Notes under the pieces: generated by a model
Database searches by the model: none
What the model was told of the DNA's origin: nothing
What the model saw: only the letters and a program-made list of their open reading frames with translations
Translations under genes and position numbers: made by a program
Virus record (IMG/VR): IMGVR_UViG_3300042292_001109
Span: 1-64,000 of that record
Origin: a virus
Reading direction: 5' to 3' (one strand)
DNA: 64,000 nt
Shown: positions 1,791-5,798 of the stretch, piece by piece
Numbering within the stretch: the first letter of the stretch is position 1
Layout: the number at the start of each line of letters is the position of its first letter

Positions 1791-2629
1791 TTGAATAACG
1801 CCTTTCTTAAAATGTTAGTAGAATATTGTGCAACTAAAAATAACACATATACTCTATATTGACTAGACAAATATGCATCATGGTACAATAAATCAGCAAG
1901 AATTTTTAATATAATCTCATTACGATTAAATCCTTTACTTAATATTAATTCTTTTGTTTCTTTAGTTAACACAGCCTGACGAGCCAATTCTTTGTTAAAC
2001 TTATCTTTTGGATGCTTAAATGCAACCGACCAGTCGACCTTAGCAGTCCCGTCAGGGTATTTAGTTATAGTTGTAAGGATAGTTAAACATAAATCGCTTA
2101 AAGGACCACCTGAACCTAATTTAGCACCATTTAAATACTGAAAGTTTGTACTTGTTGCAATTTTTGATTCAACAGTTTCAACTAATTCTAACGAACTTGG
2201 CGGATATCCTAATTTATATCCACGAATTTCAATATTATCGCTCCAATTTTGTTTAAAATAAATGCCTTCTTTAGAAATGTCGGCAATAGTAAAAACATAA
2301 CTAGTATTAATTGCCATATTCATCTCAGGCAACCAGCCATTTTCCCAGCCATTTTCTCGTTCAACTTTCCGAACAACCCGAACTCGATCACCAACTTTAA
2401 ATTCACGCATATTTTCTTCCTCAACTAAGTTTAAATATTTCTCACGAAACCACTGATTAACTTTTAATCTATTATCATAAACAGCGTATAAAAATTCATT
2501 AAACACTGCATCCCAACACATACCAACAACATTAACTTGTTTACCTGCTAATGATAATTTTTCAAAAGAAAAATCAATTGAATTTTTCGGTACTTGTAAA
2601 ACTTTAACATTATCTTTTAATTTAAGCAT
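1787..2629 (-). CDS. Hypothetical protein with a KOW/SH3-like segment
   Basis: The protein has 280 aa from the ATG at 2629. A TTG 15 nt upstream would add five residues, but the ATG is preferred because it overlaps the stop of the phosphoesterase gene by 8 nt. The middle of the protein (FKVGDRVRVVRKV, about residue 75) looks like a small SH3/KOW barrel. The C-terminal half (KVDWSVAFKHPKDKFN onward) is helical. I do not recognise a family. It belongs to the operon of the HNH nuclease, the phosphoesterase and the 69-aa gene. Confidence 0.55.
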   Translation of the reverse strand: MLKLKDNVKVLQVPKNSIDFSFEKLSLAGKQVNVVGMCWDAVFNEFLYAVYDNRLKVNQWFREKYLNLVEEENMREFKVGDRVRVVRKVERENGWENGWLPEMNMAINTSYVFTIADISKEGIYFKQNWSDNIEIRGYKLGYPPSSLELVETVESKIATSTNFQYLNGAKLGSGGPLSDLCLTILTTITKYPDGTAKVDWSVAFKHPKDKFNKELARQAVLTKETKELILSKGFNRNEIILKILADLLYHDAYLSSQYRVYVLFLVAQYSTNILRKALFK

Positions 2630-3152
2630 CTCTAGTCTCAACAAATTGTTTAATTATATCTAAATTTACAGGAGTAAAATTAATTGCCTCCATAGAAACA
2701 TTATAATATCTGGTATCAGGGACTCCATCTAACATAATCATATCAGCATGTAAGTGTCCATGAATATTTAATTTCCATCTGTCTAATTGCGATGGATGAA
2801 CAGGAACATGTGTTAATACAAAATCGTGTTTCTTAATTACACCATATAAATCTTTAAAGTATTTTAGATATACTGATGGATAGCAAGAATCGTGATTACC
2901 TTTTACAAGATATTTCTCACCATTCATTTCATCTAATAATTCAAGATATTTTTTGTTAAATGTAACATCTCCTAAGAAGTAAACGATATCATTTTTACCA
3001 ACAACTGAGTTATGTTTATAAATGATAGTTTCATACATTTCTTCTAGTGTATCGAATGGACGATATCTATTGCCATTTTCATCCGTAAATTTAATAATAT
3101 TTTTGTGACCAAAATGTTGTCACTGATCTGACGCGAAAAAAATTTCAGCCAT
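2622..3152 (-). CDS. Calcineurin-like metallophosphoesterase interrupted by one in-frame TGA
   Basis: From the ATG at 3152, which has a strong Shine-Dalgarno (GGAGGT) formed by the last codons of the HNH gene, the frame reads MAEIFFASDQ, then TGA (3120-3122), then QHFGHKNIIKF and on without a break to 2622. Motifs of the phosphoesterase family follow in order: YFLGDV, GNHD, and GHLHAD near the end. The first metal motif (SDxHFGH) is where the TGA falls. Removing 6 nt (TGA plus a neighbouring Gln codon) would restore SDQHFGH. If the stop is obeyed, only a 138-aa fragment from the internal ATG at 3038 could be made, without the first metal ligands. The reading could reflect a pseudogene, a sequence error, or a short translational hop (see findings). 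Confidence 0.75.
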
Positions 3153-3156
3153 CAGA

Positions 3157-3984
3157 TTAACCTCCTTCATTTATAAAATGTAAACAAAATTTGTGTTCTA
3201 CCCAAGTTTTATCAAAAGATAGTATTTTTTTATACAATACATCTATTAAATCTATTTTATCTTCAAATAATAATTTCCTGTCAGAAAAACCTTTAGATAT
3301 ATTCATATTATGCGGAATAAATTGTAAATTAGCGGGATGCCGTAATAACTGATATGGTATTTTAAATTCATACCCAATATTTCTAGGTAAAATATGATCC
3401 CTAACCCAACCATTTGTATTATTTCTATTAAATATACCAAATAAAGTTAATTGTTCTTGTTCATATTCAGAAAAATATTCTATCATTGAACAAATCCAAT
3501 TTGCATCTTCGTAATATATTTTATATGGATCTTTGTCGATTAATGGAATCCAATAACCAAGTTTTTCCATTGTTTGTCTATGATTTTGTTTATATTCTTC
3601 GGTAAACTTTTCTTTAGATCTTATTCCTATTATAATTTTACTGTCGGAAGTATGTTTTCTAGAATAACTTTCTGAAGTTCTATGATCGTGCATCTTAGAT
3701 ACTTTTTCTTTAGAAAATTTTTTGCCTCTATTCGCTGAGCCAGCTTTATACCTCATTTCTTCAGATTCAAATCTTTTCTTAGATATTTCTGACCCAATTC
3801 TTCGCTGTTCTTCGTTCCATTTATTATTAAAATTTGGATTATTTTCTCCAGAAAATAATACTTTTTGATGTAAATCTTTACATCGCCTACAACAATAATT
3901 ATTAGGTTTAATTTGTTTTTTATATTTTAAATATTCTATATTACAATAAGAACAATTTATAATAATTTTTGAATTCCCTCTCAT
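3157..3984 (-). CDS. HNH homing-type endonuclease with zinc ribbon and NUMOD-like repeats
   Basis: The protein has 275 aa. The N-terminus has a CxxC...CxxC zinc-ribbon-like unit (CSYC near residue 11, CRRC near residue 32). It is followed by NUMOD3-like DNA-binding segments (GENNPNFNNKWNEEQ, then ANRGKKFSKE). The C-terminal part holds an HNH-type core (VRDHILPRN, then HPANLQFIPHNMNISKG). This is the usual build of free-standing phage homing endonucleases. It is the first gene after the early promoter at 4018-4046, and its final Glu-Gly-Gly codons form the ribosome-binding site of the interrupted phosphoesterase. I infer an inserted mobile gene. Confidence 0.8.
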   Translation of the reverse strand: MRGNSKIIINCSYCNIEYLKYKKQIKPNNYCCRRCKDLHQKVLFSGENNPNFNNKWNEEQRRIGSEISKKRFESEEMRYKAGSANRGKKFSKEKVSKMHDHRTSESYSRKHTSDSKIIIGIRSKEKFTEEYKQNHRQTMEKLGYWIPLIDKDPYKIYYEDANWICSMIEYFSEYEQEQLTLFGIFNRNNTNGWVRDHILPRNIGYEFKIPYQLLRHPANLQFIPHNMNISKGFSDRKLLFEDKIDLIDVLYKKILSFDKTWVEHKFCLHFINEGG

Positions 3985-4097: not shown

Positions 4098-5798
4098 ATG
4101 TTAAGATTTAAATCTTTCCTAACTGAAGCAAAAGAAAACAGTAAAGCTGGCGCAGCCGCAAATACTAATGGAGTCAGACATGAATTGCTGACTGCAGGCG
4201 TTTTAAATCATATGTCTAAACATCATAACAGTTCAAATAATCCATATCATGGAGGAAATCATCCAAATTTATTTGAAATGGATGATAAAGAGTTAAAAGA
4301 GCATTTTGATAATCATGTTAAAAATGGACATTTTTCAGAACATTATATGCCAGAACATTATCGCGATCAAGATAATCAAATTCCAAAATCAGTTCACGAT
4401 AGATATACTCATGATTCGTTAGAACCAGAAGAACATTATAGTCATTATAGAAATGCAGTACACCACGCAAAAGAATTACATAATCATTTAGAAGAAAGAG
4501 GATACGACCCTAAATCGTTAAGTAATGTTGCATGGACTTCTGTTGATGGAAATGTTAACAGTTATATGAAAAAACATGGCAGTAATCCTGATAGAAAGAT
4601 GAATAAGGGAACTGATGATGCCGATGTTATGGCTACTATTAAAGATAAAAAAGGAAATCAAAAACCAATTGGATTAAGTTTAAAATGGGGCAGCCAAAAA
4701 AATCAAACTCCAACTGCTAAGAATAATACGCATAATACAATATTAGACGCTAAAGATTTTGGAAATGATCACGAAGATACCGTTAATGAGTTTAAAGCTA
4801 AAGCTAAAATAGAAGTAGATAATCATAAAAAACTTACACAAGGAATCTATTCCGGCGGACAAAGCGTTAGAAAACATAAATATGACCACGATGTAGATTC
4901 TCTTCGCGGAAGCCCAGATGACGAAAGATTAAAAAATAATATAAAAGCAGTAAATGATTCTTATGAAAATAAGAATCATAATGTTACAAGTCATTTAGAA
5001 AATACTTTAAATAAAATAAAAGATGGACCGAATGGACACGAACATATTAAAAATTTTGTAAGAAATAAATTACAAATTCCTAATCCAGATTTTGTTGCTG
5101 CTAGGGCGCATATGACTGTTGATAAGAATAATAATCATAATGGCCATCATTTTGAAGACCATTCAACATCATTGAATGACCATTTAAATAATGCTAATCA
5201 TTTTAAAGTAGAAAGAAGTGGCGCAACATTAAGAATCCATGCCATGGATAAAAGCGGAAATCCATTATTTTCGCATAAAATGTGGACAAAAGGTAACAGC
5301 AGAAAAAGCGATGATGTAACTAAAATTTTACATGCAACAGAAAAACCTTCACCTAAAAAAGGCAAAACCGTGAATAAAAAACAAAATACAACAGAATCTG
5401 TAATACAAATGTTAGATAAAGTCATAGATAATAATTTAGTCGAATCAACTGATTCATTTAAAGCTGTTTTATCAAGTAAAATCGCATCTAGATTACTTGA
5501 AGCTAAAAAAGCAGTTTATTCTGAAAGATATGACAAAGATTTAGATAAAAACAAAAATGGTAAATTAGACTCAGATGATTTCAAAAAACTAAGAGCTAAA
5601 AAATATACCAATAAATGCGATACTACATGTAACGAAGAAGCGATTGAAGATGCATTAAATGAAGTTTTAAATCCTTCTATGGGCGTCAAAGCATATATAG
5701 ATGATTTCATAAAATCAGATGACTCTAGATTCGAAGGCGACTCTAAAGAAAAACGCCGTCAAAGAGCTATTGCAGCATTTTATAACGACAAAAACTAA
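4098..5798 (+). CDS. Capsid-internal virion protein with nuclease-like core and EF-hand-like loop
   Basis: The protein has 566 aa and is very rich in His, Asn and Lys. The N-terminus MLRFKSFLTEAK fits the T4 capsid-targeting peptide, with L-T-E as the likely prohead-protease site. Around residues 170-200, DDADVMA followed by IGLSLKWGS resembles the D...(S)xK layout of PD-(D/E)XK nucleases and is seen in other T4-like virion proteins; this is a weak structural guess. Residues 435-470 carry a module (NLVESTDSF, SSKIASRL) shared with the next gene. Near residue 485 DKNKNGKLDSDDF reads as an EF-hand/dockerin-type calcium loop. Start: AAGGAAATCAAT before the ATG. Probably packaged with DNA. Confidence 0.65.
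   Translation: MLRFKSFLTEAKENSKAGAAANTNGVRHELLTAGVLNHMSKHHNSSNNPYHGGNHPNLFEMDDKELKEHFDNHVKNGHFSEHYMPEHYRDQDNQIPKSVHDRYTHDSLEPEEHYSHYRNAVHHAKELHNHLEERGYDPKSLSNVAWTSVDGNVNSYMKKHGSNPDRKMNKGTDDADVMATIKDKKGNQKPIGLSLKWGSQKNQTPTAKNNTHNTILDAKDFGNDHEDTVNEFKAKAKIEVDNHKKLTQGIYSGGQSVRKHKYDHDVDSLRGSPDDERLKNNIKAVNDSYENKNHNVTSHLENTLNKIKDGPNGHEHIKNFVRNKLQIPNPDFVAARAHMTVDKNNNHNGHHFEDHSTSLNDHLNNANHFKVERSGATLRIHAMDKSGNPLFSHKMWTKGNSRKSDDVTKILHATEKPSPKKGKTVNKKQNTTESVIQMLDKVIDNNLVESTDSFKAVLSSKIASRLLEAKKAVYSERYDKDLDKNKNGKLDSDDFKKLRAKKYTNKCDTTCNEEAIEDALNEVLNPSMGVKAYIDDFIKSDDSRFEGDSKEKRRQRAIAAFYNDKN

Follow-up and report, generated by a model that had tools for sequence, protein, structure and literature searches.

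To our knowledge, programmed bypassing in bacteria comprises essentially one well-proven case, gene 60 of phage T4, which is long, out of frame and involves several signals. The 5′ hairpin of this gene is thought to pull the mRNA, and homing endonuclease insertion has been linked to the bypass (PMC5009743, PMC3014915, PMC11194080). Synthetic "stop hop" constructs in E. coli, as cited in a 2016 review (ref 54 in PMC5009743), use nine nucleotides for one amino acid, and the same review states that no example of in-frame stop hopping was known from nature (PMC5009743). The mitochondria of Magnusiomyces capitatus possess 81 bypassed sites, termed byps, in 12 genes, which appear to be context independent (PMC5009743, PMC8211752). 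No later report of a natural in-frame stop hop was found in the literature searched, with subscription journals mostly outside its range.

The locus described here lies in a phosphoesterase gene of the window, the whole 64,000-nt stretch that was analysed (IMG/VR record IMGVR_UViG_3300042292_001109, positions 1 to 64,000). In six further phage lineages the DxH metal motif is interrupted by 6 nt at the same place, which makes seven including the window. On the comparative evidence below, we assign a probability of about 0.8 to the reading that this phage phosphoesterase site is a recurrent programmed in-frame stop hop. As in T4 gene 60, the closest precedent, the sites lie in phage genes and have a stop right after the take-off codon, a matched landing codon and a hairpin 5′ of the take-off codon, which is weakest in the window. 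However, the gap in gene 60 is 50 nt, compared to 6 nt in frame at these sites; its take-off stem-loop contains the stop, whereas the stems found here end before the stop, as the 6-nt gap leaves no room for a take-off stem-loop. In addition, gene 60 has a long KKYK nascent-peptide signal ~30 residues before take-off, compared to a pre-stop peptide of 7-26 residues at the hop sites. Its association with a homing endonuclease has a counterpart in the window (HNH-like) and in lineage L007 (LAGLIDADG), but none was seen in five lineages. The synthetic stop hops share an identical geometry, with matched codons around a stop and a 6-nt in-frame movement; however, they are artificial reporters seen without such a hairpin, whereas the phage sites are natural, recurrent and preceded by one. 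Similar to the byps, the phage inserts would be nucleotide blocks tolerated via ribosomal hopping, but the byps are mitochondrial and distributed over many genes, whereas the phage sites occupy one exact site in one gene family. This family is that of the phrog_547 phosphoesterases, which all seven interrupted genes match; the 25 homologues that were examined are uninterrupted.

The interrupted phosphoesterase gene of the window

The interrupted gene is encoded on the minus strand (2622..3152), as are its hairpin, the upstream ORF and the inserted unit described below, and runs from an ATG at 3152 to a TAA at 2622. A Shine-Dalgarno sequence, GGAGG (3161..3165), is recognizable 8 nt before the ATG. 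From the ATG (3152-3150) the gene reads ATG GCT GAA ATT TTT TTC GCG TCA GAT CAG TGA CAA CAT TTT GGT CAC, which corresponds to the peptide M-A-E-I-F-F-A-S-D-Q, a TGA and then Q-H-F-G-H-K-N-I-I-K-F, with a frame that stays open as far as the TAA at 2622. The in-frame stop TGA (3120..3122), which would be hopped, is flanked by the take-off codon CAG (Gln, 3123..3125) and the synonymous landing codon CAA (Gln, 3117..3119), at which HNH-free relatives have CAC or CAT (His). The remainder of the gene (2622..3119) is intact and keeps the HFGH, GD, GNHD, H and GHxH motifs. It matches the phrog_547 phosphoesterase family with an E-value of 2e-47, in addition to a Pfam Metallophos match slightly under the cut-off. 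The sequence and the phrog_547 match confirmed the initial annotation of a well-started phosphoesterase that reads SDQ-TGA-QHFGH and then continues in an open frame.

A second contig, IMGVR_UViG_3300046006_004907, has an identical interruption in a genome that differs by ~1-2% from that of the window, which makes a read error at the window stop unlikely. Together with the convergent cases in six other lineages, this contig argues against the sequencing error that had initially been named as a main alternative. Recoding of TGA in the window was also rejected, as TGA terminates 18 of the 115 ORFs of at least 100 codons and is a normal stop in this phage. Frameshifting at the T7 run was rejected as well, since the ribosome would have to shift twice, out of the frame and back, and early stops result. 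A group I intron was rejected on the basis of an Rfam search around the insert, which gave no intron match and nothing except a chance snoRNA match (E 0.5).

Recurrence of the interruption in seven phage lineages

A first generic scan of IMG/VR used the pattern GAY-NNN-TRR-NNN-CAY-TTY-GGN-CAY-NNN-AAY-ATH, which imposes no amino acid at the codons around the stop, and retrieved six stretches, all of them phosphoesterases with a stop. L026 came from the second generic scan, along with four chance matches (L025, L027, L028 and L029) that have no phosphoesterase and possess non-synonymous flanks; beyond the window's own case, the generic scans gave five phosphoesterase cases. A viral scan restricted to Leu revealed one more true case, L043, and a last wider viral scan gave chance matches only. 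As the scans demanded HFGH-type motifs and 6-nt inserts, these counts are lower bounds; all inserts scanned for included a stop codon. All carriers of the interruption are metagenomic contigs. In 84,980 bacterial and archaeal genomes, no true case emerged from two scans; among cultured phages, none of the best 60 matches to a short probe, judged by alignment span, had the insert, and neither did any of 22 INPHARED homologues that were read directly. A search of 1.46 Mb of phage sequence, on both strands, for a codon, a stop and a synonymous codon with a strong hairpin, judged by hairpin, frame and translation only, found no recognisable interrupted gene beyond the phosphoesterase sites. The same search gave a few other strong-hairpin matches, such as a terminator-like one at L061:6710.

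Comparison of the sites revealed the codons CAG-TGA-CAA in the window and L002, CTG-TAA-CTG in L007, CTT-TAA-CTC in L008, CTT-TGA-CTT in L009, CTT-TAG-CTA in L010 and L011, CTG-TAG-CTG in L026, and CTT-TAA-CTA in L043. The take-off and landing codons are synonymous in all seven lineages. This recurrence with synonymous flanks exceeds chance, the product of residue frequencies being ~2e-7 for the six sites from the generic scans, all of which are synonymous. From wobble rules, one tRNA is expected to read both the take-off and the landing codon. The A-site codon at take-off is a TAA, TAG or TGA in every case (3, 2 and 2 lineages, respectively). The carrier phages employ all three codons as terminators, with the exception of the L007 phage, in which TAG is a sense codon (ORF coverage increases from 0.47 to 0.82 with TAG open, and a CUA tRNA is present) and the hop site has TAA, a true stop. 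As all three stop types occur, no single suppressor accounts for all sites.

Further analysis suggested that the interrupted genes are maintained as coding sequences. All seven match phrog_547 with an E-value of 8e-41 or better, and the metal and catalytic residues (the H of motif I, GD, GNHD, H and GHxH) are invariant in the alignment of the post-stop parts. L009 and L010, which are both interrupted and differ in the stop (TGA vs TAG) and in the landing codon (CTT vs CTA), share 64.5% identity, with a pS of 0.76 (saturated) and a pN of 0.23, values that show purifying selection despite the stops. Between the window and L002 there are two synonymous and no non-synonymous changes, too few for a selection test. 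On a tree of 32 homologues, the hop label needs six parsimony changes, at least four of which are forced by well-supported branches, and the hop genes are polyphyletic. At the position of the hop codon, the nearest uninterrupted relatives have Thr (for L007) or His (for the window), compared to Leu or Gln in the hop genes; the codon pair therefore probably arrived together with the insert or was altered along with it.

The HNH-like gene and the inserted unit

The upstream ORF of 275 residues (3157..3984) terminates 4 nt ahead of the phosphoesterase ATG, as the initial annotation had it (3157 vs ATG 3152). It has a match to NUMOD3, with an E-value of 0.037 that does not pass the cut-off; no curated family matched above cut-off, and neither NCBIfam nor PDB gave a match. 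An HNH motif (DHILP ... NLQFIPHNMN) could be recognized by eye, on which reading the ORF is a putative HNH-like (NUMOD3-like) homing endonuclease.

Four IMG/VR contigs encode the same phosphoesterase with 89-100% identity. One of the four has the identical insert and the HNH-like gene, whereas L004, L005 and L006 lack both and have MSEVFFCGDHHFGHKN or MAEVFFCGDHHFGHNN at the insert site. A blastn comparison of the window against L005 showed homology that extends as far as the start codon at 3982 (99.3%) and resumes at 3123 (98.2%); against L004 the homology resumes at 3119 (99.3%). These boundaries delimit an inserted unit of ~862 nt (3120..3981), with the HNH start codon at one end and the interrupting stop at the other, in place of ~20-25 nt of the resident gene. 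The unit contains the HNH ORF, a new Shine-Dalgarno sequence, a new N-terminus, the hairpin, the take-off codon and the stop, and its right end is the stop/landing junction. By this comparison, the HNH ORF takes over the upstream region and own ATG of the resident gene, and the unit provides the phosphoesterase with a new ribosome binding site and N-terminus, its last codon being the stop. In other words, the window cassette arrived as the right end of a unit that includes the HNH-like gene. The divergent neighbour gene (window 4098-5798) is 99.3% identical to L005 and ~74% to L004, and the phosphoesterase side of the window is 99.3% identical to L004, a switch in identity that marks the shared upstream region as a boundary of recombination.

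A further probable effect of the insert is a change in the target of the HNH-like nuclease, which may block cleavage and protect the site. The connection between insert and HNH gene that was initially suggested, together with a comparison of relatives with and without this gene, holds in the window, where the HNH-free relatives L004-L006 are also without the insert and the junction is the end of the unit. It does not hold in general: an endonuclease gene, recognised or putative, lies directly upstream in two lineages only, the window (HNH-like) and L007 (LAGLIDADG, above Pfam cut-offs), and since none was recognised there in the other five, the link is partial. The carriers without a recognised endonuclease belong to other phage lineages and have conserved coding. 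In the L007 phage (L072/L030, G002), the LAGLIDADG gene, read with TAG as sense, continues through an HTH-like tail and overlaps a possible start of the phosphoesterase.

The upstream hairpin and the proposed hop

All seven sites possess an inverted repeat, a feature that the initial annotation had not described. Its 3′ arm spans the Ser-Asp codons, leaving 0-3 nt to the stop, and its 5′ arm begins 28-47 nt before the stop. In the window, the 5′ arm ATCTGATG (3150..3157) includes the start codon, and its hexamer ATCTGA pairs at six of six positions with the Ser-Asp codons TCA GAT; the 3′ arm CGTCAGAT (3126..3133) ends directly before the take-off codon. Folding of the 48 nt that end with the take-off codon gave a mean MFE of -18.3 kcal/mol for the seven hop sites, compared to -5.1 in the 25 phage homologues that lack an interruption (p 6e-5), and a mean shuffle z of -4.1 compared to 0.0 (p 1e-6). 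The sliding-window MFE has its minimum at the take-off codon, and the signal is gone 24 nt to either side. The Ser-Asp hexamer is fully paired at every hop site, by Watson-Crick pairs throughout in five and with one G-U pair in two, whereas none of the 25 controls has a full Watson-Crick hexamer. Among the phages, the pair at the Ser wobble position is G-C, C-G or T-A, i.e. of three Watson-Crick types. Such compensatory changes, in which the arms follow the coding wobble bases of separate lineages, suggest that the RNA is under selection. The window hairpin is the weakest of the set (z -1.4, p 0.10) and draws its support mainly from the family pattern. Two uninterrupted genes, from L098 (Vibrio phage Ceto) and L104 (a human faecal phage), also have moderately strong hairpins near the motif (z ~-3.3 and ~-2.9, respectively), which may be chance, relics or precursors. 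At the L007 hop site (L030), an out-of-frame ATG with a well-placed GGAGG sits inside the hairpin, and the predicted 12-residue peptide crosses the site.

We propose that the ribosome would read the first phosphoesterase codons to the take-off codon (CAG in the window, CTN in the other phages), upon which the stop codon enters the A site and some ribosomes release the P-site codon rather than terminate. The ribosome would then slide 6 nt forward, and the same peptidyl-tRNA would re-pair with the synonymous landing codon. A single amino acid would then be encoded by nine nucleotides, and the D-x-H metal motif would come out correctly. Once the ribosome has passed, the hairpin would fold again and exert a pull on the mRNA, a role that has been argued for the 5′ stem-loop in T4 gene 60 (PMC5009743, PMC11194080); it is the likely stimulator of the hop. 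The nearest in-frame starts lie 7-14 codons before the stop, and upstream starts of L007, L009 and L010 at 25-26; with pre-stop peptides of only 7-26 codons, a nascent-peptide signal of the T4 kind is improbable for most of the sites. The efficiency of the hop may be low. A short hop between synonymous codons, as originally put forward for the window, is the reading best supported by the comparison, given the seven lineages, every type of stop, the synonymous flanks, the intact active sites and the shared hairpin.

Alternatively, the 6-nt insert might kill the gene in a phage that lives without it. A stop at codon 11 normally terminates expression, and the event in the window lineage is recent, which leaves that gene too young for a selection test; however, insert position, synonymous flanks, hairpin and intact active sites are shared by seven lineages, and purifying selection is indicated between the diverged carriers L009 and L010. 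This recurrence and selection disfavour a plain pseudogene, initially the other main alternative, and we regard it as very improbable. The least credible reading is that a tRNA reads through the stop, which would place two additional residues between the D and the H of the protein. Several carrier phages are rich in tRNAs, and two have a tRNA with a CUA anticodon, but the sites include every type of stop, with TAA in the phage that recodes TAG, and read-through yields D-x-x-x-H instead of D-x-H and has no need for synonymous flanks.

Instead, the hairpin, which overlaps start codons, could control initiation, with the start codon sequestered, the short ORF serving as a regulatory leader and the downstream frame translated by re-initiation. 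The start codon indeed lies within the 5′ arm or loop in most cases, and phage ribosome binding sites covered by hairpins have been described (PMC3014915). Nevertheless, no ATG, GTG or TTG that would preserve motif I lies close to the landing codon, the products would be without the first metal ligand, and the synonymous flanks would stay unexplained, all of which render this reading highly improbable. It is also conceivable, though unlikely, that the hop is real, with hairpin and insert being side effects of the mobility of endonucleases, i.e. a DNA palindrome or an alteration of the target site, rather than stimulators. The window cassette as the right end of an HNH-containing unit, the position of the L007 site after a LAGLIDADG gene and the similar history of T4 gene 60 (PMC5009743) all fit such an origin, whereas the five lineages without a recognised endonuclease directly upstream and the covariation of the arms, which suggests selection at the RNA level, argue against it.

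Beyond the programmed stop hop itself, we lean slightly towards the view that a natural class of hairpin-driven in-frame stop hops, without a long nascent-peptide signal, arose or spread several times among phage phosphoesterases, in part as the ends of mobile endonuclease units that in doing so rebuild and immunise the interrupted gene. If true, bypassing would have a minimal natural version, a hop of six nucleotides in frame with one hairpin, which is easy to place in reporters and could be used to ask what an upstream hairpin alone does to a ribosome at a stop codon. Some phage "pseudogenes" or "read-through" genes would then be hop genes, and the sites would further support that endonuclease insertion and ribosomal bypassing go together.

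Two minor observations concern the surroundings of the genes. On the minus strand of L063, ~95-140 nt upstream of the L043 hop site, a second, degenerate N-terminus of a phosphoesterase is present, TFFTSDTHLGHLILR, reminiscent of an earlier 5′ end that remained when an insertion occurred. In L033/L034, the phosphoesterase is directly followed on its 3′ side by an ORF of 92 residues, which looks like a fusion of a short unknown N-terminus and an FkbM methyltransferase fragment (Pfam E 2.6e-13).
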